A stretch of DNA of 64,000 nt, taken from positions 1 through 64,000 of the forward strand of contig JANQNX010000016.1 in the NCBI GenBank assembly GCA_028279365.1. The letters run 5' to 3'. A model generated the notes under the pieces. The model saw only the letters and a program-made list of their open reading frames with translations. It was not told the DNA's origin and ran no database searches. The stretch is from Gammaproteobacteria bacterium. Lineage in GTDB: Bacteria > Pseudomonadota > Gammaproteobacteria > Eutrophobiales > Eutrophobiaceae. Position numbers and translations under genes: made by a program. The stretch's first letter is position 1. Each line of letters starts with the position of its first letter. Positions 2,027 to 59,028 of this stretch are shown here, in pieces.

Positions 2027-3961
2027 ATGACTATGACAAAGTCAAAACATAAGTCATTGCCATTTGCATATGCCGTGTTCACGGCATGCCTTACTGCAAG
2101 TGCAATGCTATCCGCTCCCGCGCATGCTGTAACGAAAGTGACGTGGGAAAAAATCATGATGGACGAACACACACCCAATGACGTCCTGACTTATGGCTTG
2201 GGCCTAAAGGCGCAACGCCATAGCAGTCTTAATAAAATTAATGCTAACAACGTTGGTACGTTGAAACCAAAATGGTCTTTCTCTTTTGGCGATGAAAAAC
2301 AACGAGGCCAGGAGAGTCAGGCTCTGATTCATGATGGTATTATCTATATAACCGGTTCTTATTCACGCATGTTTGCATTGGATGCACGCACCGGTAAAAG
2401 ACTTTGGCAATACACTGCCAGATTACCTGAAGACATTCGCCCTTGTTGCGACGTTGTTAACCGTGGTGCTGCAATCTATGACGATAAGGTGTTCATGGGT
2501 TTACTGGATGCTTCGGTTGTCGCGCTGAATAAAGACACGGGAGAAGTTGTCTGGAAAGAAAAGTTTGGTGACCACACGGCTGGTTACACCATGACAGGTG
2601 CACCTTTTATCGTAAAGGATCAAAAAACAGGTAAAGTTCTTTTAATACACGGTTCATCAGGTGACGAGTTTGGTGTAGTCGGTAAACTGTTTGCTCGTGA
2701 TCCACAAACCGGAAAAGAAATCTGGATGCGTCCTTTTGTTGAAGGCCATATGGGCAGATTGAATGGTAAGGACTCAACCCATACCGGTAATGCAAAAGCG
2801 CCATCCTGGCCTGATGGTGATTATAATGACACAGGCAAAGTGGAAGCATGGAGTCATGGCGGCGGTGCACCTTGGCAAACCGCTACATTTGACGTTGAAA
2901 CAAACACTATCGTTGTTGGTACAGGTAACCCGGCTCCCTGGAATACCTGGAAACGAACTGGGCCCGACAAAGATCCTGGTAACTGGGATAGCCTTTATAC
3001 CTCAGGTCAGGCATACCTTGATCCGACAACTGGTGAAATGGTCGGCTTCTTTCAGCATACTCCAAACGACGCATGGGATTATTCTGGTAATAACGAAATT
3101 ATCCTGTTTGATTACAAAGATCCAAAGACCGGTAAGACAATCAAAGCCGGGGCTCATGCTGATCGAAACGGTTTCTTATTTATCACCGACCGTGAAAAAC
3201 TCACCAAGCGCGGTGCTAAAAAACCCAATAAGCCTACTTCATTAATTGCTGCTCACCCATTTGTTCCAGGTATTACCTGGGCTAAGGGCTTTGATCTGAA
3301 AACAGGCCGACCAATTGTTAATTACGATCAATACCCACCAGAACCAGCGAAAGGTGAAAAACAAGGTAAAAAGATTCAAGTGACGCCTAACTTCCTGGGT
3401 GGAAAAAACTGGAATCCGATGTCTTATCATCCTGATACAGGTTTATTTTATATCCCCTCTAACCATTGGTCTGAAGATTACTGGACAGAAAATGTGACCT
3501 ATAAAAAAGGGGCAGCTTACCTGGGCCAGGGCTTTCGTATTCATCGTCAGTTCGATGACCATATCGGTTCTTTAAAAGCGATGGATCCATTAACTGGCGA
3601 AACCGTTTGGGAACACAGAGAGAAACTTCCTCTTTGGTCAGGCACACTAACCACTAAAGGTAACCTTATCTTTACTGGTACCAGTGATGGTTTTGTCAAA
3701 GCATTCGATGCGACTAATGGTGAAGAACTATGGGCCTTCCAAACTGGCTCAGGTGTTGTTTCTATACCCATTACCTGGGAAATGGCCGGTAAACAATATA
3801 TCGGTATCGCTTCTGGTTATGGTGGTGCGGTTCCACTCTGGGGTGGTGATGTTGCTGACCTAACTAAGAAAGTGACACAGGGTGGTTCCTTTTGGGTGTT
3901 TGAATTACCAGAAAATATAGCCACAACAGTAACACCTTCAGAAGATGTTGCTGCAAATTAA
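2027..3961 (+). CDS. exaA: PQQ-dependent alcohol dehydrogenase, ExaA/PedE type (calcium class)
   Basis: A periplasmic quinoprotein of 644 residues that oxidises primary alcohols (ethanol class) and donates electrons to a c-type cytochrome. The signal peptide covers about residues 1-34 (ending PAHA). The eight-bladed propeller has tryptophan-docking repeats such as ALDARTGKRLW, and the vicinal disulfide RPCCDVVNRG occurs near residue 140. The active-site block NDAWDYSGNNE (about 350) has catalytic Asp in WDY. The residue two positions later is Ser, not the Asp of lanthanide enzymes (XoxF, PedH), so this enzyme is expected to use calcium, as ExaA/PedE do. Length is normal. It forms its own unit, closed by a strong terminator. 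The cytochrome and accessory genes downstream are its likely partners. Confidence 0.92.
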   Translation: MTMTKSKHKSLPFAYAVFTACLTASAMLSAPAHAVTKVTWEKIMMDEHTPNDVLTYGLGLKAQRHSSLNKINANNVGTLKPKWSFSFGDEKQRGQESQALIHDGIIYITGSYSRMFALDARTGKRLWQYTARLPEDIRPCCDVVNRGAAIYDDKVFMGLLDASVVALNKDTGEVVWKEKFGDHTAGYTMTGAPFIVKDQKTGKVLLIHGSSGDEFGVVGKLFARDPQTGKEIWMRPFVEGHMGRLNGKDSTHTGNAKAPSWPDGDYNDTGKVEAWSHGGGAPWQTATFDVETNTIVVGTGNPAPWNTWKRTGPDKDPGNWDSLYTSGQAYLDPTTGEMVGFFQHTPNDAWDYSGNNEIILFDYKDPKTGKTIKAGAHADRNGFLFITDREKLTKRGAKKPNKPTSLIAAHPFVPGITWAKGFDLKTGRPIVNYDQYPPEPAKGEKQGKKIQVTPNFLGGKNWNPMSYHPDTGLFYIPSNHWSEDYWTENVTYKKGAAYLGQGFRIHRQFDDHIGSLKAMDPLTGETVWEHREKLPLWSGTLTTKGNLIFTGTSDGFVKAFDATNGEELWAFQTGSGVVSIPITWEMAGKQYIGIASGYGGAVPLWGGDVADLTKKVTQGGSFWVFELPENIATTVTPSEDVAAN

Positions 3962-49042: not shown

Positions 49043-52000
49043 TCAAATTACTTCTTGAACTATCGCATTTAAATTAACTGTATCGATCAAGTTAACTACC
49101 TTAATTGCCTGAGAATCGTCAAATACACCAAGCAATCCTTGATCATGAATACTAGTAAAAGGTGGCTCAAATAATAGCGCCTTATCAATCACGCCGTTAG
49201 TGGTTAGATAACTGATTATGTTGTTGATAAATGTTATTTGATCAGCACGTAAATTACCGGACTGTATAAATTCAGCAAAATGTTCTTGCGCAGCCTTCGC
49301 ATCAAGACCAACGATGTTACGAATAAATACGCCTAAAGGTTTATTACCATAAGTATCAATATAATCTTCTTTCGTTCCTACAGTTTCACCATCAAATAAA
49401 ATATCTTCTAATAATTGAATCTCTGTTTCAGTGATGGGTTTATTCGTTTTTATTTTTTGAATTACCAAGTGATCGCTGTAGTTTCTAACATATGATTCGA
49501 CACGGTCTTTATAACTTTTCAGGGTTCTATATGTGCCTATTGGTTCTCTTACTTCTATTCCATCTTCATCCAGTTCATCTTCAAAACTGGTGGTTACAAT
49601 AATCTGTTGCTGTTTATCCAGGTATTTCATTAAATCGCGCAACGCCAAGCGTACATCATCTAATCGATTAACATTTATATCTGACCAGAATGGCTCTGTG
49701 AGTAATTCATTTAATAAATCAACTTGTAGAGCGACTGCCGGTATATTCTGTTTTTTCAGCAATGCCTTCGCTGTACCACTAATGCTATTGATATAATGAT
49801 CACGATTTTTACTCATCAACAAGGCAATTTGAAACTTTAATATTAATACATCAAAACGCTTTGCTAGTTCATCATCCTTATCATTTTTTGCTTCTAGGCC
49901 AGATAGTTCATTATTAATATCCAGCACATCACCTTTAGATAAATTCTGCCAACGTTCCGCATGACTATACTCAACAACAAAACGCAACTTGGCTTTTACA
50001 ACAAACCGTTCCCTATCAAGAAAAACAACTGCTTGATGTAAATCAGCAATATAAGATTCAGCCAAAGACTTTTGTTCATCGGTACTTTCTGAATTTTTAC
50101 GAATTAACATCGCTACTTGCAATTTCGCTATAAAAATTTGTTGCGACAGGCTTGTAGCAACACGACCTTGAACACCATCCGGATTTTCATCAAAAAATTC
50201 AAAGTTCTGACAATAATCAAAAATATAAAATTCAGTTTTATCCTGCCCAAGTCCGAACAGATCTGGGCATAAACGCGTGCCGCGACCAATCATTTGCCAA
50301 AACTTGGTCGATGACTTCACGGGCTTGAAGAAAACCAGATTCACAACTCGTGGTGCGTCAACACCTGTATCCATCATATCGACTGAAACAGCGATTTGCG
50401 GATCGTTTTCTTCATATTCATCAACAAAGATTTCCAGTAAGTCTTGCGCCTTAGATTCATAATTATCAATCACTCGCAAAAACTTTCCGACATATTCGGG
50501 ATAGTTCTTATTAAATCGCTCTTCAATAAAAACAGCATGCGTGTGATTTTTGGCAAAGATAATTGTCTTACCAAGCTTCTCACCACCCTGCACTTGGATT
50601 CCCTGAGTCATTAAATGGTTTAAAACCTTATCAACCGTATCAGTATTGAATAACCAATCATTCAAAGCCTTGCTGTCTATCTCATCCGGCGCCTCACCCT
50701 GAGTCGGATCACCAAACTTCTCTTCATACTCTCTCTTTTCTTCATCCGATAAATCAGCATACTTTACGCCATACCACATAAACTGCGTCGGTACAGACAT
50801 CGCCTTGGGTGCAACAAGAAAACCATCTTCAACGGCTTTGTCTAATTCATACGCAAAGGTCGGGTTATTATCTTCAATGCCAAATAAGCCATAAGTATTG
50901 TGATCGACTTCTGCCTTAGGTGTTGCCGTTAAACCTATCAACAAGGCATCAAAGTATTCAAAAATAGCTTTATATTTCTGATATACAGAACGATGCGCTT
51001 CATCCACAATAATTAAATCAAAATGATCCACACCATAAAAACGTTGGTCATCTGTCTTCACTCCATCAATCCGATTCATAATTGTCGGATAAGTCGAAAA
51101 TACTAATCGCGTGCCGTTGTCCTCTCTTTCCCTAGTGAGATCAATTGCGGATAAATCCGGCAAATAACTATTAAAGGCATTCTTCGCTTGCGAGACCAAT
51201 GCATTGCGGTCAGCTAAAAACAAAACACGTTTCACCCAGTTACACTTCGACATCATATCGACAATCGCAGCAGCCGTTCTTGTCTTACCGCTACCCGTCG
51301 CCATGACTAATAAACTTTGTCTTGCTCTGCCATTGAGTTCACCTTCGCTATTTACAGTACAAGTATTTTCTGCCACACGTGCGACAGCTTCTAATTGATA
51401 AGCACGCCCTGCAATATCCTGGTTTACTTTAAACTCACACAAATCTTTGCGTGTCTTACGTCGTTCGATTAATAACGCTAATTCATCTTTGGCATAAAAA
51501 CCCTGTACTTCACGCTCAGGATAAAACTGATCGTCCCATAAATAGGTTTCAAAGCCATTACTATAAAAAATTATCGGACGTTGACCTTTTTCCTTTTCTA
51601 AACAATCTGCATAAAGCTCTGCCTGATGTTTCCCTTTACGTGGATCGGTCATGGTCTTTTTCGCTTCGACGACAGCTAAAGGCAAACCATCATCACCCCA
51701 AAGCACATAATCGACATAACCAATGCCGGAAGGGTTGGTACTCTTCGGCATACCCTTCACTTCATATTCGAGATGATAACCTTCCTGTAAATCTTCCCAA
51801 CCCGCTTCGCGTAATGCTAAATCAATATAACGTGCACGCGTTTCTTTCTCGGAAACTTCAAGCGGTACTTCGGTTCCAATATCAACCGCTTTCTCGCGCT
51901 CTACCTTACGTGCGGCAAACTCTGCGCGTTCTTGTTCCAGTTGTTTTTTTAACTCTGCGTTTTCTTCTACTTGTTTAAAACGATCCGCTTCAGCTTCTCT

Positions 52001-52492
52001 AGCCGCTTGTTCTTTTGCGGCAAGTTGTTCTTTTAAACTTTCTATCTGTGACGTACTTTCAGTTTGAATTTTACCGGAAGGAATTAACGCTTCATCAAAC
52101 ACTTGCGATTTAGGTGTTTTCTTACCGTAATAAATCACAATATGCCGCATAAAACGAAACAGGTATTTAAGCGAAGCTAATGCGTCTTGCTGATTGACCT
52201 TTTTACCATGTGCCGCCAGGTTGCCTGTTTTGCGGATTAAATTCAGTTCCGCAAATAATGTTCGATTGAACATGGACTGAAATGCATGTTCATGAAGTAA
52301 AGTATTTAAATCAGCGCGGAAAGGACGCGTTAAAGTCCGATCATTGTCGTATAACCAATTCACGGCATTTTCTAACGAGGAGCGACAAAAGATAGAAGCG
52401 GCCTTCGGTGAGATAAAGGTGAGTTGCTCTGCCTCTAAGGCATCGACATAGAGCTGAGGAAAGTCAGCTTGTAAAAATAGAAAGTTACTCAT
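49043..52492 (-). CDS. hsdR: Type I restriction endonuclease subunit R
   Basis: A 1149-residue motor/nuclease subunit. The N-terminus (1-120) resembles DUF4145, followed by a coiled-coil (about 150-210). The nuclease domain contains VDYVLWGDDGLPLAVVEAKKT (D and E-x-K). SF2 helicase motifs follow: MATGSGKTRTAAAI, DEAHRSVY, GLTATP, SVDMMDTGVDAP and MIGRGTRL. ATG 52492 has AAGGGA upstream; a TTG six bases earlier is also open. It closes the fic-hsdM-hsdS-rhuM-hsdR operon. Confidence 0.93.
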   Translation of the reverse strand: MSNFLFLQADFPQLYVDALEAEQLTFISPKAASIFCRSSLENAVNWLYDNDRTLTRPFRADLNTLLHEHAFQSMFNRTLFAELNLIRKTGNLAAHGKKVNQQDALASLKYLFRFMRHIVIYYGKKTPKSQVFDEALIPSGKIQTESTSQIESLKEQLAAKEQAAREAEADRFKQVEENAELKKQLEQERAEFAARKVEREKAVDIGTEVPLEVSEKETRARYIDLALREAGWEDLQEGYHLEYEVKGMPKSTNPSGIGYVDYVLWGDDGLPLAVVEAKKTMTDPRKGKHQAELYADCLEKEKGQRPIIFYSNGFETYLWDDQFYPEREVQGFYAKDELALLIERRKTRKDLCEFKVNQDIAGRAYQLEAVARVAENTCTVNSEGELNGRARQSLLVMATGSGKTRTAAAIVDMMSKCNWVKRVLFLADRNALVSQAKNAFNSYLPDLSAIDLTREREDNGTRLVFSTYPTIMNRIDGVKTDDQRFYGVDHFDLIIVDEAHRSVYQKYKAIFEYFDALLIGLTATPKAEVDHNTYGLFGIEDNNPTFAYELDKAVEDGFLVAPKAMSVPTQFMWYGVKYADLSDEEKREYEEKFGDPTQGEAPDEIDSKALNDWLFNTDTVDKVLNHLMTQGIQVQGGEKLGKTIIFAKNHTHAVFIEERFNKNYPEYVGKFLRVIDNYESKAQDLLEIFVDEYEENDPQIAVSVDMMDTGVDAPRVVNLVFFKPVKSSTKFWQMIGRGTRLCPDLFGLGQDKTEFYIFDYCQNFEFFDENPDGVQGRVATSLSQQIFIAKLQVAMLIRKNSESTDEQKSLAESYIADLHQAVVFLDRERFVVKAKLRFVVEYSHAERWQNLSKGDVLDINNELSGLEAKNDKDDELAKRFDVLILKFQIALLMSKNRDHYINSISGTAKALLKKQNIPAVALQVDLLNELLTEPFWSDINVNRLDDVRLALRDLMKYLDKQQQIIVTTSFEDELDEDGIEVREPIGTYRTLKSYKDRVESYVRNYSDHLVIQKIKTNKPITETEIQLLEDILFDGETVGTKEDYIDTYGNKPLGVFIRNIVGLDAKAAQEHFAEFIQSGNLRADQITFINNIISYLTTNGVIDKALLFEPPFTSIHDQGLLGVFDDSQAIKVVNLIDTVNLNAIVQEVI

Positions 52493-52515
52493 GCTCAATC
52501 CCTTAAACTGTAACG

Positions 52516-53526
52516 TTATTCCTCCTCGCGTTTACTTGGTAAAGCCAACATCGCCATAACTAACTTAATAATCACTTCTTTTTGTTTGGGATCGGACTCT
52601 GCAATTAATAAGGTTAATGCTGCTAAACCCGTATCATTTATAATTGGCTCCTGTTGATTATTGAATAAGCGATTATTTCGATTGAGAAAATCGACAAATA
52701 AAAACGCACCACTGCGTTTATTGCCATCACTGAACGGATGATTCTTGATCACAAAATACAGCAAATGTGCAGCCTTGCTTTCAACACTCGGATACGCTGG
52801 CTCACCAAATACAGTTTGCTCCAGATTCCCTAAAATGGACGCCAATCCATCCTCGCGTAAATTTGCAAATAACTCAGTGGCCTCTCCACGTTCAATCAAT
52901 GAATGCTTAAGCATGTTTAAATTTGCCATCGCCTCATCGTTCGATGGCAATACACCACCTGTCTGCCCCTGAGGCTCTTCCAGTAAGCCCTCATCATACT
53001 GCTGCAACCATAGAAACGTTTGTGTATAACGGCTAACAATTTCGACCAAACCAGTGCCTGCTTCTGCGGTAATCTCGGCTGATTGCGCAGTTTTTTCAAT
53101 TAAGGCCAGTGCCTGTTTTAAGGCTTGTGAATTTTGTTCAAAACGATGTTGATTGAGTGTATAACCTTGTACCAATACATCTTTTAGGCGTTGGGTAGCC
53201 CAAATACGAAATTGCGTTCCCTTTTTCGAGTTGACTCGATAACCAACTGAAAGAATAGCGTCAAGGTTATAGTGCTCGACCTCACGATTAACTTGTCTAC
53301 TACCCTCCTTTTGAACTATCCGGAATTTCCGGATAGTTGAATTCTCTATAAGCTCTTGTTCTTTATATATATTTTTAAGATGCTCATTAATAGTACGCAC
53401 ATCTTTGTCAAACAAGATCGACATTTGTCGCTGCGTCAGCCATACAGTCTCCTGATTACCATCCAAATGCACTTCAATATGTTGGTCATCCGTTTGATAT
53501 ATAACGATTTGATTATCCATCATCAA
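52516..53526 (-). CDS. RhuM-like protein fused to a Fic/DOC domain
   Basis: A 336-residue protein. Residues about 1-190 are a RhuM/virulence-family domain (VWLTQRQMSILFDKDVRTINEH in part, HYNLDAILSVGYRVNSKKGTQFR in part). Residues about 195-330 hold a Fic/DOC fold with HPFSDGNKRSGAF, the H-x-F-x-D-G-N-K-R AMPylation motif. It overlaps hsdS by four bases and is translated with it, lying between hsdS and hsdR. Such insertions recur in type I systems; the substrate is unknown. Confidence 0.87.
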   Translation of the reverse strand: MMMDNQIVIYQTDDQHIEVHLDGNQETVWLTQRQMSILFDKDVRTINEHLKNIYKEQELIENSTIRKFRIVQKEGSRQVNREVEHYNLDAILSVGYRVNSKKGTQFRIWATQRLKDVLVQGYTLNQHRFEQNSQALKQALALIEKTAQSAEITAEAGTGLVEIVSRYTQTFLWLQQYDEGLLEEPQGQTGGVLPSNDEAMANLNMLKHSLIERGEATELFANLREDGLASILGNLEQTVFGEPAYPSVESKAAHLLYFVIKNHPFSDGNKRSGAFLFVDFLNRNNRLFNNQQEPIINDTGLAALTLLIAESDPKQKEVIIKLVMAMLALPSKREEE

Positions 53527-55340
53527 CCTTGCTTTTTTGAGACATATTTTCCCCGACCTTCAGGAACAAGTTTTTTTGCTCGAATCCAGTCAATCGCCTT
53601 AAAAAAACGTTCTCGAGGAATGTTTAATTTGCCTTCATGCCAGTTATCTCTGGCTGCTAGCACAATTGCTTCATCAGTTATTTCTAATTTATCAAGCAAT
53701 AAATTATTCCAAGCTGCATAAACAGTCGCAAAGATTTCTGCTTTTTCTGTGTCCATTTTCAACATTAATTTAACAAGATTTTCAAAACCTGTTAGTAGTT
53801 CAGCTTCATTCAATGCATTCCTCGCTTTTTCTGCAATTACACTAAATTGACTACTCTTTTCTAAAACATAGCCTGTAGATTTATTACCTTTAAAAACGAA
53901 AAAACCGGCTTTTTTTGCTCGAGGTTTTACTTTTTTATTAAAATGTTGAAAGTCATTAGGGCCCGCTGCGTCTTGTATTGGTTTGCGATCCAATTCGATA
54001 CCAAGCATTGATTCAGCCATATGCACAATTTTTTCGGCTTTAACATGGCCAAACTGTCTTTCTTTACCAACTTTTTTGTGTGCTTCATAAGCAAGTGCCA
54101 ATATACCAATATGTAAATCAGTCGTACTAATACCAGGAATACGGTTAGGAAAAGGAATAACATTATCAATAATATCTTCACTGATATTAGTTAATTCCCC
54201 TGTAAAGGCTTTTTGAAGTAAGGCATTGAATAATTCGTTAGATTTTTCCAAATTCGCTTGGGCTTGTTGTTTTTGTTCTTCGATTTTTTTAACACGTTCG
54301 GCGAATTGGTTTTGGAATTCGATTGGAGCGTGAAGTATTTTAATATTTTGTAACTCCTGTGCATTAATATTTGCCATACCAACAATGTTCTTACACATGT
54401 TTTCAAGAATTAATTTACCATGCCGAGAGTTAAGATACCCCCAAATATAGTATGGATTTGCTAAATCATTTGCTCTAACACGAATCAAATATCCAGCAAT
54501 TGCCATTTGTTCATCTTCAGAGTATATCCCTGTCTTACCTACCAATTCTTTACTGTTTGTTCTATTAAAAAGAACATCACCTTTTTTAACCAAATATTTT
54601 TCCTTATCTTTTTCCGAGAGGTTTATATATTTCAAATCCTTATAATCCATATAACCTTGATAAGTAATATTATTCATTCTTAAATATGGATACTTTCCAC
54701 CCTCATTAGCTTTAGCACTAGTCCCATACTTAACTTCAGATACTAGATCACGAATAGTTCCCAGTTTAAATTTCTTAGTGTTAGTAAAAGGATCACCAAA
54801 CATTTCAAGGAACAGGGATTGGCTGAGTTGGATGTAGTGTTTGACGAGTTGTTGGTCTTTTTGTCTTAAGGCATCCGCCGCATCTAATATCGCCGCAATC
54901 TGTTTTTGTTCTTCGAGTGGTGGGAGTGGAATTAACTGTCTGGCAATTGTTTTATGCCCTAAATGCTTTTGAATTCCACCTTTCATTTGCTTTTGAAGCA
55001 TCGACTGAAAAATATTAGACGATAAAATAAAAAATAGATAATCTCTACTAACGTAATCAAGATTGAATGAAATTTTGAACAAATTATTACTTAGTATGCC
55101 ATTTTTACCTTTAAACACTCTACCTGGGCTTCCTGTATTTGCCATTACCAAGTCATTAACAGTTACCTTTTTAATATCATAATCATCATCGACAAAACTA
55201 AGACTTTTATCAGTTAGAAAGTCGGCAATATAGAGATATCTATAACCACCATCATATAGAGTGGTTGATGTTTTAGATTTCGGTATTTGTACACCTTGTG
55301 TGGTTTGACAAATAGCGCCGATTTCTACAAATCTACTCAC
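53523..55340 (-). CDS. hsdS: Type I restriction-modification specificity subunit with C-terminal extension
   Basis: A 605-residue protein, about 200 longer than the usual HsdS of 380-450. TRD1 (1-145) ends in the conserved PPLEEQKQIAAILDAADALR helix. TRD2 (about 185-345) ends in FAERVKKIEEQKQQAQANLE and LQKAFTGEL. The remaining residues (about 380-605) form an additional domain (AEKIVHMAESMLGIELDR, DAAGPNDFQHF, ERFFKAIDWIRAKKLVPEG) of helical and winged-helix-like character. It overlaps hsdM and rhuM-fic by four bases each. The DNA target cannot be predicted. Confidence 0.9.
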   Translation of the reverse strand: MSRFVEIGAICQTTQGVQIPKSKTSTTLYDGGYRYLYIADFLTDKSLSFVDDDYDIKKVTVNDLVMANTGSPGRVFKGKNGILSNNLFKISFNLDYVSRDYLFFILSSNIFQSMLQKQMKGGIQKHLGHKTIARQLIPLPPLEEQKQIAAILDAADALRQKDQQLVKHYIQLSQSLFLEMFGDPFTNTKKFKLGTIRDLVSEVKYGTSAKANEGGKYPYLRMNNITYQGYMDYKDLKYINLSEKDKEKYLVKKGDVLFNRTNSKELVGKTGIYSEDEQMAIAGYLIRVRANDLANPYYIWGYLNSRHGKLILENMCKNIVGMANINAQELQNIKILHAPIEFQNQFAERVKKIEEQKQQAQANLEKSNELFNALLQKAFTGELTNISEDIIDNVIPFPNRIPGISTTDLHIGILALAYEAHKKVGKERQFGHVKAEKIVHMAESMLGIELDRKPIQDAAGPNDFQHFNKKVKPRAKKAGFFVFKGNKSTGYVLEKSSQFSVIAEKARNALNEAELLTGFENLVKLMLKMDTEKAEIFATVYAAWNNLLLDKLEITDEAIVLAARDNWHEGKLNIPRERFFKAIDWIRAKKLVPEGRGKYVSKKQG

Positions 55341-56818
55341 CCCAACATCTCCTTCAATGCTGCCAAGGCTTCGCTTCTTTCTTTATCCAATTGTTCTATA
55401 TCGGTAATAATCTTTTCTGGCGGATCGTATTCTACTCCTTCATACACAGCTTCTTTATAGCGGTTAATGCTTAAGTCCCATTCGTTTTCTTTAATTTCTT
55501 GCATTGGCACCGTAAAACTTTGATCGGTACGTTTGCGTTTTGCTTCCGCTTTCGGGTTTTTAAAGCGTTTTAGAATATCGGGAATGTTAGATTCTTTTAC
55601 TTCGCTGCGCTTATCATCAAGACTAAAACCATCGGCCTGCATATCGTAGAACCAGACATTATCCGTGCCGCCGTTACTGGTTTTGGTAAAAATCAATATT
55701 GCCGTACTGACTCCGGCATACGGCTTAAACACACCGCTGGGCATAGATATAACGGCTTCGAGTCGATGCCCTTCTACAATAGTCTGGCGGATTTGTTTAT
55801 GTGCTTTCGATGAACCGAACAACACGCCATCAGGAATAATCACCGCACATCGACCACCAACTTTTAACATGCGTAACATCAAGGCTAAAAACAGTAGTTC
55901 GGTTTTTTTGGTTTTAACAGTTTTTAATAATGAATCATCCACACCATCATAATCCAGCGAACCTTTAAACGGAGGGTTGGCAAGCATTAATGTATATTGT
56001 TCGCGACTGTCTTTATTCGCTTCGCTTAAAGCATCTTTCGCAATAAGGTTTGGTTGTTCTATCGCATGTAGTTGCAGGTTCATTGCCGCAATACGTAGCA
56101 TAGTGGGATCAAACTCAACGCCGGTAAACATGTCGCTATTAAAATGTTTGCGAAAATCTTCATCATGCAACCAATCAGCATGATGCTCATAAATATATTC
56201 ACCTGCGGCGACTAAAAAGCCAGCTGTACCACAAGCCGGATCGCATATCCGATCTTCCTGTTTTGGTTGCATCATCTCAACCATCATTTTAATAATGTGG
56301 CGTGGTGTGCGGAATTGTCCATTAGTACCTGCGGTGGCAATTTTCGACAACAGGTATTCATACAGATCGCCTTTGGTATCGCGATCATCCATTTGAATCT
56401 TATCGATCATCTGCACAACCTGATCCAGTAACTTCGGTGTCGGGATCATAAAGGTCGCACCTTTCATGTATTGCGCAAATACGCCGGCCTCATCACCCAA
56501 TTGTTTCATGTGTTCAAACACGGTGAGGTTGTCCGCATCTTCCTGCGGTTGAGTGAAGAGCTGAAACATTGTTTCCGGATCTTTATCCTTGAAATTCTTC
56601 CAACGAAGTTTGTCGTGCTGTTCTTTATAAAGACTGCGCTTGGCTTCACCACCAATCATACTGGCTTTCTTTTCTTCCAGTTGTTGGCGTTCACACAAAC
56701 GACGCAGAAATAATAGATACGTAAATTGCTCGATGACCGTCAGCGGATTACTGATCCCCCCTGTCCAGAAAGTCTCCCAGATTTTATCGACCTGACTTTT
56801 TAATTCGCCTGTTACCAT
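55337..56818 (-). CDS. hsdM: Type I DNA methyltransferase subunit M
   Basis: A 493-residue N6-adenine methyltransferase. The N-terminal HsdM_N helical domain (1-130) leads to the SAM motif CDPACGTAGFLVAAGEY and catalytic NPPF in LMLANPPFKGSLD. VGGRCAVIIPDGVLFGS and MPSGVFKPYAGVSTAIL complete the family pattern. It is the second gene of the operon, nine bases after fic. Confidence 0.95.
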   Translation of the reverse strand: MVTGELKSQVDKIWETFWTGGISNPLTVIEQFTYLLFLRRLCERQQLEEKKASMIGGEAKRSLYKEQHDKLRWKNFKDKDPETMFQLFTQPQEDADNLTVFEHMKQLGDEAGVFAQYMKGATFMIPTPKLLDQVVQMIDKIQMDDRDTKGDLYEYLLSKIATAGTNGQFRTPRHIIKMMVEMMQPKQEDRICDPACGTAGFLVAAGEYIYEHHADWLHDEDFRKHFNSDMFTGVEFDPTMLRIAAMNLQLHAIEQPNLIAKDALSEANKDSREQYTLMLANPPFKGSLDYDGVDDSLLKTVKTKKTELLFLALMLRMLKVGGRCAVIIPDGVLFGSSKAHKQIRQTIVEGHRLEAVISMPSGVFKPYAGVSTAILIFTKTSNGGTDNVWFYDMQADGFSLDDKRSEVKESNIPDILKRFKNPKAEAKRKRTDQSFTVPMQEIKENEWDLSINRYKEAVYEGVEYDPPEKIITDIEQLDKERSEALAALKEMLG

Positions 56819-56826
56819 GATTTCCT

Positions 56827-57939
56827 TTAATACTTCTTAAATTTATTTGAATCTTTCGTTATCAGTTTCATTAACTTTGGATTAATGAAAATGTTTTCTC
56901 TACCTACTTTCTTGGCTTGTAATACACCAATGTTTTCTAATTTCTTTAAGTACTCTGATGCGGTTTGTCGCTTTGCTATATCTGCTTCGACTAAATTACT
57001 TATGCGGCAATACGGTTGTTCAAAAATTATATCGACTAATTCCCGCGTATAGATTTTCGGTTGTTCTTCTTTTACGTATTCAACTGTGTCTTCTATTAGG
57101 TTTCTTATTGCTGTAATTTTACCCATTGTCCAGCGCGCGGTTTCTTCCACGGCTTTTAGCATATACATGATCCAGGACTCCCAATCTTCTTCCTTCGTTA
57201 CTTGTAGTAATAATTGATAATAATCACTTTTATTCTGGATAATGTATCGACTTAGATACATGATGGGCAGGGTTAATAATCCTTCTTGTACTAAAAACAG
57301 ATTGTTAACAATTCTCCCTATCCGTCCGTTTCCATCTGTAAAAGGATGTATTGCTTCAAACTGATAATGCGCAATAGCCATGCGTATTAATGGATCGACA
57401 TCAGACTCATCATGTAAATAGGTTTCCCAATTCGCGAGAATATCTCTTATCTGTTTTTCGCCTTCTGGTGGTGTGTAAATAACCTCGCCCGTATTATCAT
57501 TTGCCAACGCTGTACCCGGTACTTTGCGCACGGACATGTCGACATCTTTAATCTGGCTACATATCTTTTCTATCGTTGTTGTGTTTAATGGTCTTTTTGC
57601 TATCAATCGATAGCCATCTAACAACGCTGTTCTATAGCGTAGCGCTTCTTTCGTTGCGCTATCCAGATATTTATCTGCACCAGCATTTATCTGAGCATGC
57701 ATGAATAATTTATCTGTGGTCGTGACTATATTCTCTATCTCGGAACTGTCCTTTGCTTCGAGTAATGGCAAGGTATTAATCAACATTGCCTGATTTGGAA
57801 TAAGTTCTGCGGCTTGTTTTAACTCCGCCAAGGCCGAACGCGAGTTAACACATTGTTTTAAAATGGATTTTGTCTCTACTTCCTTTGCAGGAGGTAGGTA
57901 CGGTAAGTCGTTATAGGGTTTGTCTGGATTCCATTTCAT
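56827..57939 (-). CDS. Fic-family adenylyltransferase with N-terminal inhibitory helix and HTH tail
   Basis: A 370-residue protein. The class II inhibitory motif SSEIEN (S-x-x-x-E-N) occurs near residue 65. The Fic core has [20 protein letters not shown] (H-P-F-x-D-G-N-G-R-x-G-R). The last 80 residues form a winged-helix-like segment ([37 protein letters not shown]). Fic enzymes with HTH tails are often autoregulatory. It is the first gene of the restriction operon, directly downstream of the TGTCGA array, which might be its operator. Confidence 0.9.
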
Positions 57940-57969
57940 AATCGCTATACATGATATATCCCGTTTATT

Positions 57970-58135
57970 TCGACGTATTATCCGTTTATGTCGATAGGAT
58001 CGACACGTTTTCTATATATGTCGATATTTTTATATTTTTTCGACATATAATTAGAATATGTCTATAACATCGACATGTCAATATAATATGTCGATATTTT
58101 TATATTTTATCGACATATCTATAATTAGGTCTATA
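57970..58135. repeat. TGTCGA/TCGACA box array upstream of the fic-hsd operon
   Basis: Seven exact boxes: TGTCGA at 57989, 58019 and 58089, and TCGACA at 58000, 58040, 58070 and 58110, with near copies at 57970 (TCGACG), 58059 (TGTCTA) and about 58128. They lie in extremely AT-rich DNA. Two units, 58017-58048 and 58087-58118, are almost identical palindromes 70 bases apart. The array occupies the promoter region between the nuclease-like gene and fic, consistent with a multi-site operator. Confidence 0.8.
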
Positions 58136-58146
58136 TGCAATGTTAT

Positions 58147-59028
58147 CTAATAGGTTTTGATCCCATACCTGAGTAATTCTCTGGGTAAGATATCATCCAG
58201 ATTCTGTACATCCTGCTCGGTAAGTTCGATTAAATTAAATTCATACTTTTTATAAATAGATTGTTTATCTTCTTTACGCTTCAAGTATTTGGAGTTTTCT
58301 TCATAGCCCCAGTATTCGATGTAGACCTTGCCTGTTGGTAAATAGAAGTCGCAGTACACATCTTCTGCAATCGGAAGCTTTCTTTCATATGCATGAATGA
58401 CTTCGGCCATGTAAAGCCAGTTGTCGATTAACATCTCTGATTTGGAACGCACATAGTGGCCATCTGTACAACGATGTTCTGCTTTAAACTTCTGTCTAAA
58501 CTCATCATTGTTGGTATGTTTGGATTCCGTCTCTGATTTCTCTTCAGATTTCGTACCTTGTAAATCGGAGATCGAATTTTGAAGAGAACCGTTACTAAGA
58601 ATCTCTTGCGGCCAAATTACATAAGGAGTTCCAGAACGTTTATTTTCTAACTGTTTACCCCCAAGTTTTTTACCTGGCTCAGTAATTGTCCAACCAACAA
58701 GTCCTCGCTTAATCCAGCCGAGTTCAGAGAATATAGGATTAATTTTATTTCGTGAGATTTTAAAATGTTTACTGATATCGGTTGCAGAGAGTAATTCGCC
58801 CTGCTCTGCATTATTCTTTTCATCATCCAGTATATTTTCAGGCCAAACTAAATAGCTTCCATACTTATCACTTTCTTTTATTTCGCCACCTACTGACTCG
58901 CCTTCTGGACTGATAACCCAGCTGCCCTCATCTTCCTTTATATAGCCTTTTTCTTTTAATATTGTATCGACCTCATACTTCTTAAGTTCATTGGCTTTGG
59001 CAAGTGCAGTTGCTGAAATCTTATTCAT
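58147..59028 (-). CDS. Tandem DNA-binding-like modules fused to a PD-(D/E)XK-like nuclease domain
   Basis: A 293-residue protein. Residues about 1-65 and 78-145 are two similar modules, each a short helical HTH-like part (ISATALAKANELKKYEVDTI; LSATDISKHFKISRNKINPI) followed by G-x-W-x-(I/T)-x-x-(G/P)-E/G-x-x-x-GG and a YLVWPENIL or YVIWPQEIL end. The C-terminal part (about 180-290) has RSKSEMLIDNWLY (Glu), YCDFYLPTGKVYIEYWGY (Asp and Glu) and KYLKRKEDKQSIYKKYEFN, matching PD-(D/E)XK nucleases. It is placed at the head of the restriction island; start ATG 59028. Confidence 0.7.
   Translation of the reverse strand: MNKISATALAKANELKKYEVDTILKEKGYIKEDEGSWVISPEGESVGGEIKESDKYGSYLVWPENILDDEKNNAEQGELLSATDISKHFKISRNKINPIFSELGWIKRGLVGWTITEPGKKLGGKQLENKRSGTPYVIWPQEILSNGSLQNSISDLQGTKSEEKSETESKHTNNDEFRQKFKAEHRCTDGHYVRSKSEMLIDNWLYMAEVIHAYERKLPIAEDVYCDFYLPTGKVYIEYWGYEENSKYLKRKEDKQSIYKKYEFNLIELTEQDVQNLDDILPRELLRYGIKTY

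Follow-up and report, generated by a model that had tools for sequence, protein, structure and literature searches.

We analysed a 64,000-nucleotide window (contig JANQNX010000016.1 of assembly GCA_028279365.1, from a gammaproteobacterium of the Eutrophobiaceae) in which a leftwards-transcribed gene, fic, encodes a protein adenylyltransferase of the SoFic family and is the first gene of a cluster of type I restriction-modification (RM) genes. The 207 bp intergenic gap between the start of fic and the upstream gene (57940-58146; 73% A+T) contains a dense array of TGTCGA/TCGACA boxes, which very probably represents the promoter-operator of fic itself. The features of fic and of the array are listed below, the operator and promoter assignments being predictions.

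56827..57939, minus strand: fic, SoFic protein adenylyltransferase, 370 aa, with Fic_N, Fic (HPFTDGNGR) and SoFic-like_C winged helix regions
56956..56979, minus strand: fic codons 321-328 (IAKRQTAS), covering the turn and the beginning of the recognition helix; best box-tracking window
57970..57994, no strand: putative operator palindrome 1, fic-proximal, TCGACG-N13-TGTCGA
58000..58024, no strand: putative operator palindrome 2, exact, TCGACA-N13-TGTCGA
58040..58064, no strand: putative operator palindrome 3, TCGACA-N13-TGTCTA, overlying the -10
58070..58094, no strand: putative operator palindrome 4, exact, TCGACA-N13-TGTCGA, overlying the -35
58110..58133, no strand: putative operator palindrome 5, degenerate, TCGACA at 58110 and GGTCTA at 58128, occupying a lattice position
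58053..58081, minus strand: candidate sigma-70 promoter inside the array, -35 TTGACA at 58081-58076 and -10 TATTCT at 58058-58053
58075-58059, minus strand: promoter spacer, 17 bp, TGTCGATGTTATAGACA

There are seven exact boxes in the array (starting at 57989, 58000, 58019, 58040, 58070, 58089 and 58110) and two variants (TCGACG at 57970 and TGTCTA at 58059). The original prediction that this density is far above chance is borne out, as 5,000 dinucleotide-shuffled versions of the gap have a mean of 0.22 boxes and a maximum of three. The half-sites alternate in orientation with spacings of 19, 11, 19 and 21 that then repeat, and the repeating unit is a 25 bp palindrome, TCGACA-N13-TGTCGA, with copies starting at 57970, 58000, 58040, 58070 and 58110 (the last of these degenerate) and start-to-start distances of 30, 40, 30 and 40 bp. 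Two near-identical long palindromes 70 bases apart had also been reported; these 32-base palindromes are present, measure 33 bp (58016-58048 and 58086-58118; 97% identical and offset by 70 bp), and correspond to the facing halves of two adjacent 25 bp units, the N15 junctions. The proposal of an operator-type array is supported. In the rest of the 3.1 Mb genome the 25 bp palindrome has isolated and imperfect matches only.

Half-sites of the TGTCGA and TGTTTA types alternate in enterobacterial arrays, and their distribution is informative about the likely binding unit. The two halves of an N13 palindrome are of the same type in 99 of 120 instances (65.2 expected). Between halves that face one another over N5 (18 of 62; 20.5 expected) or N15 (30 of 84; 29.9 expected), agreement is at the level of chance. 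Because the half-sites co-vary within N13 palindromes only, one N13 palindrome is most likely the unit of one dimer.

Several lines of sequence evidence indicate that the window Fic protein is a member of the SoFic anti-phage family. It is a full-length match to the NCBIfam equivalog NF046030 (622 bits; cut-off 550) and matches the PADLOC SoFic model (PDLC03963) at 3.4e-123. The catalytic motif is intact (HPFTDGNGR at residues 198-206, conforming to HPFxxGNGR), and the class II inhibitory motif (S/T)xxxE(G/N) is present as SSEIEN at residues 65-70. The C-terminal winged helix matches PF21248 (125.5 bits; cut-off 27), with a helix-helix-wing arrangement in the predicted structure. The AlphaFold model has a mean predicted local distance difference test (pLDDT) score of 90.4, places the recognition helix at residues 324-336 in a block with pLDDT >90, and superimposes on PDB 3ZCN with a Z score of 51.2 and a root-mean-square deviation of 1.4 over 365 residues (61% identity). 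Close relatives of SoFic are encoded in 278 of 5,426 complete Escherichia coli genomes, and SoFic-like proteins are nearly absent from phage records.

The array accompanies fic across many genomes. Lack of the boxes in related islands had been named as the observation that would count against an operator, but among 80 related SoFic loci from public genomes (loci are labelled L with a number) most of those in the Gammaproteobacteria have the same boxes at the same spacing upstream of fic; these extend over many genera and a few other phyla, with a longer version of the same array at the E. coli SoFic loci. A de novo test for periodic inverted repeats that is blind to box sequence detects an array at 96 of 146 SoFic loci and in 6 of 265 regions upstream of other open reading frames (ORFs), and at a score of at least 4 the counts are 58 and zero, respectively. 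Fic genes of other families in viral contigs were the planned negative control, and since 16 of their 50 upstream regions scored as arrays, the regions upstream of unrelated ORFs were added as a control. We also searched 369 gammaproteobacterial genomes for the pattern, and clusters of overlapping matches on both strands adjoin a SoFic gene or its remnant, with the exception of the orphan arrays of one genome. Over the whole pattern search there are orphan cases in two genomes, described below, and lone matches elsewhere look like chance occurrences. Matches to an exact 18-base pattern in viral contigs are mostly lone among the matches listed, and were not used as evidence.

We note several individual loci. 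Among Fic genes of viral contigs that are not SoFic, those at L173, L177, L181, L182, L185, L188 and L241 have upstream regions that score as periodic inverted arrays, their boxes (AAGGAT, TTAAAG and others) being unrelated, and array-based self-control may be wider among Fic proteins with a winged helix-turn-helix (wHTH). At L395 (G477:C1) an intact array (3130-3235 and 3266-3508) precedes a decayed fic gene, of which only N-terminal and middle pieces remain. L043 is labelled Streptomyces cinereus, and its Fic protein and AT-rich array resemble those of Moraxella or Acinetobacter; it is probably a contaminating contig.

The box sequence varies among loci together with the recognition helix of the Fic protein. 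The helix AKRQTAS is paired with TGTCGA or TGTTTA, SR[IL]TAT with TGTATA, SRPTAT with TGTAAA, SRTTLT with TGTTCA, KEKTAG with ATGCCC, and GNRHTAS with TGGTCA. Per-column mutual information places Q325 at the top, but is confounded by relatedness, and a partial-correlation scan was therefore used. Across 52 dereplicated loci, residues 321-328 rank first of 363 eight-residue windows for the correlation with box distance net of full-length distance (partial r 0.296, permutation p 0.0002); the permutations treat loci as exchangeable, so that the p value is only partly corrected for phylogeny, and more reliance can be placed on the window ranking. The box caller required words starting with TG, and a few boxes that were missed or mis-oriented (at L027 and L054) were kept uncorrected. 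On this sequence evidence, the Fic C-terminal helix-turn-helix (HTH) is by far the best candidate for binding the array.

The original prediction offered the Fic HTH and the product of the adjacent upstream gene as alternative binders, and only the first of these is sustained. The upstream gene is as follows.

58147-59028, minus strand: tandem-module gene, PADLOC candidate PDC-S69 (2.3e-111)

Its product has two repeated N-terminal modules, and its C-terminal part matches the PD-(D/E)XK-type model HEAT_CxxC_PDDEXK, making it a candidate defence nuclease by sequence. The array adjoins this gene as well as fic and the repeated modules are HTH-like, and a reading in which either this protein or a host regulator binds the array, with Fic as a passenger, can thus be framed. 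However, tblastn found no homologue of the tandem-module protein at any of the 80 related SoFic loci, and a host regulator would leave the tracking of the Fic recognition helix by the box unexplained; we consider this reading highly improbable.

The array also appears to have a promoter built into it. The optimal spacer of a sigma-70 promoter is 17 bp, which is exactly the length of TGTCGA-N5-TCGACA. When the N5 junctions are read towards fic, the flanking hexamers match TTGACA/TATAAT at 8 or more of 12 positions in 33 of 50 loci; the same threshold is reached at 1 of 71 junctions read in the opposite direction and at 6 of 79 N15 junctions. In the window the junction gives TTGACA-17-TATTCT, which is kept in L005 and L006. 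The palindromic sites thus overlap the predicted promoter of fic itself, as in an autorepressor of the CccR type. CccR of Yersinia pseudotuberculosis is a Fic toxin with a C-terminal wHTH that represses its own expression through inverted repeats (PMC9755527), and because of this precedent repression is the likely sign of regulation by SoFic. The array could instead serve mainly for activation, or for storing the enzyme on DNA in an inactive form to be freed by infection, with repression secondary. Coxiella Fic2 does become active on binding DNA (PMC10628234), and enterobacterial arrays reach more than 250 bp upstream, beyond what occlusion of a promoter needs. Nonetheless, operators that overlap the -35, the spacer and the -10 have the geometry of a repressor, and CccR represses (PMC9755527), so this seems unlikely.

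A terminator scan raised the possibility that the stem-loops of the array act in transcription termination. These stem-loops are the operator half-sites themselves, and we rejected this because spacing at the DNA level and the register of the promoter are preserved in the arrays, and box sequence varies along with the protein. In enterobacterial loci, L398, L399 and L400 among them, the final half-site (TAAACAT) directly adjoins the start codon of fic, so that no clear Shine-Dalgarno sequence is left.

Downstream of fic, the remaining genes of the presumed operon are closely packed.

55337..56818, minus strand: hsdM, type I methyltransferase, 8 bp after fic
53523..55340, minus strand: hsdS, specificity subunit, 4 bp overlap with hsdM
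52516..53526, minus strand: RhuM-Fic gene (RhuM N-terminus, Fic C-terminus), PADLOC candidate PDC-S23, 4 bp overlap with hsdS
49043..52498, minus strand: hsdR, type I restriction subunit, 17 bp after the RhuM-Fic gene and closing the presumed operon

Because successive gaps are 8, -4, -4 and 17 bp, there is no sizeable upstream region other than the array, and all five genes should be under its control. The RhuM-Fic gene between hsdS and hsdR is a second Fic-domain gene in the operon; in L400, a SoFic locus of E. coli, fic likewise has another Fic gene beside it.

The position of the array is the basis of the proposal that it is the restriction operon's own operator, responding to an RM-linked controller and delaying the nuclease until methylation is established. 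RM controller (C) proteins act at an autoregulatory operator heading an RM operon, and here too the array heads the operon, with no other promoter-sized gap between fic and hsdR. However, hardly any of the 80 related loci have hsd genes beside fic, and most array-bearing SoFic genes have no adjacent RM genes. The array is retained in the closest relative, L005 (86% Fic identity), where the 6 kb after fic contain none of the other genes of the window operon; conversely, no array accompanies the close hsdM relatives (81% and 75% identity) that lack an adjacent fic. Moreover, in three other loci (L009, L024 and L050) the array stands between hsdR, on its upstream side, and hsdM, on its downstream side. 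Because fic without RM genes keeps the array and hsdM without an adjacent fic has none, the array belongs to fic and not to the RM system. The operator does not travel with the RM genes as a C-box would, and the regulator is a Fic enzyme rather than a small HTH C-protein; the coupling of the array to the RM operon is an acquired one in this locus. A delay of the nuclease is disfavoured in addition because hsdM, hsdS and hsdR lie in one operon, where a shared promoter cannot set the order in which methyltransferase and nuclease appear, and because an autorepressor is absent on entry into a new cell, so that the operon would be derepressed. We therefore give this proposal almost no credence.

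The explanation that we favour, and hold to be very likely, is that the array is the SoFic promoter-operator, at which SoFic dimers bind and repress their own promoter, here also controlling the RM operon. SoFic dimers would bind the 25 bp palindromes TCGACA-N13-TGTCGA through the C-terminal winged helix, with four to five dimers at 30/40 bp intervals on roughly one face of the DNA and presumably binding cooperatively. Dimers occupying palindromes 3 and 4 would mask the -10 and -35 and occlude the fic promoter, and, with fic the first gene of the fic-hsdM-hsdS-rhuMFic-hsdR cluster, this one switch would govern expression of the entire type I RM operon. Repression may be released on infection, perhaps when ATP or AMPylation drives a movement of the C-terminal domain. 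ATP binding shifts this domain in E. coli Sofic (PMC12249575), and such a shift might connect the state of the enzyme with its binding to DNA. A more elaborate version is that the half-sites of the lattice double as the promoter spacer, that the box alphabet diversified with the recognition helix to give each locus a private self-repression code, and that the DNA is freed when infection triggers ATP binding or AMPylation, with a burst of toxin and the linked RM operon as the result; this we put forward only tentatively, as more doubtful than not, and its last step is speculation.

Several observations weigh against the favoured explanation. About one-third of SoFic loci lack an array by the de novo test, many of them GC-rich or divergent, and at these self-control may have been lost or have escaped detection. 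Orphan arrays without an adjacent fic are present in two genomes, G425 and G549; they either remain from a fic gene since lost or are used in trans. The partial correlation between box and helix is moderate, with windows near residue 98 close behind, and the window promoter, which matches the consensus at 10 of 12 positions, is on its own within chance (9 found versus 7.4 expected in the region). CccR has a single, wider-spaced operator, AGATAATCAT-N26-ATGATAATCT, compared with the multi-copy 25 bp palindromes of SoFic. Lastly, the support is computational throughout, and binding and repression are predictions.

The orphan TGTCGA arrays, which have no intact adjacent SoFic gene, are at 3274-3309 and 14315-14429 in L394 (G425:C1) and at 3600-3656 in L396 (G549:C71); in L396 there is a RhuM-Fic gene about 2 kb away.

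CccR and SoFic are otherwise alike in that CccR is a dimeric class II Fic enzyme with a C-terminal wHTH and inverted repeats near the -35 and -10 of its own promoter. It differs in being a secreted effector, with 29% identity over 45% of SO_4266 (PMC9755527), and its operator has two 10 bp inverted repeats separated by N26, whereas here there are 6 bp boxes, N13, and a repeat every 30/40 bp. The window protein belongs to the same family as S. oneidensis SO_4266 (PDB 3EQX, 3ZCN) and E. coli H397 Sofic (PMC12249575), and the E. coli copies carry the array. CbFic2 of Coxiella burnetii (PDB 8CIL) is likewise a Fic enzyme with a wHTH that binds DNA, but only random DNA was used, and no specific site is known for it; DNA binding by SoFic was undemonstrated as of 2023 (PMC10628234). 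We did not find the SoFic operator, the lattice, the built-in spacer or the box-helix code in the open-access literature, although there are newer SoFic PDB entries (9TB0, 9TC4, 9TCH and 9TCL) and parallel work may exist. The kind of regulator is known from CccR, a Fic-wHTH autorepressor; the SoFic operator and its architecture appear to be new.

SoFic is a widespread anti-phage toxin, and the regulation of its toxicity has been described as elusive (PMC12249575). The conserved operator proposed here supplies exact DNA sites, a likely dimer unit, a promoter register and a specificity table, all ready for testing, and the locus would illustrate one route by which a single switch comes to serve both a defence toxin and a restriction system.
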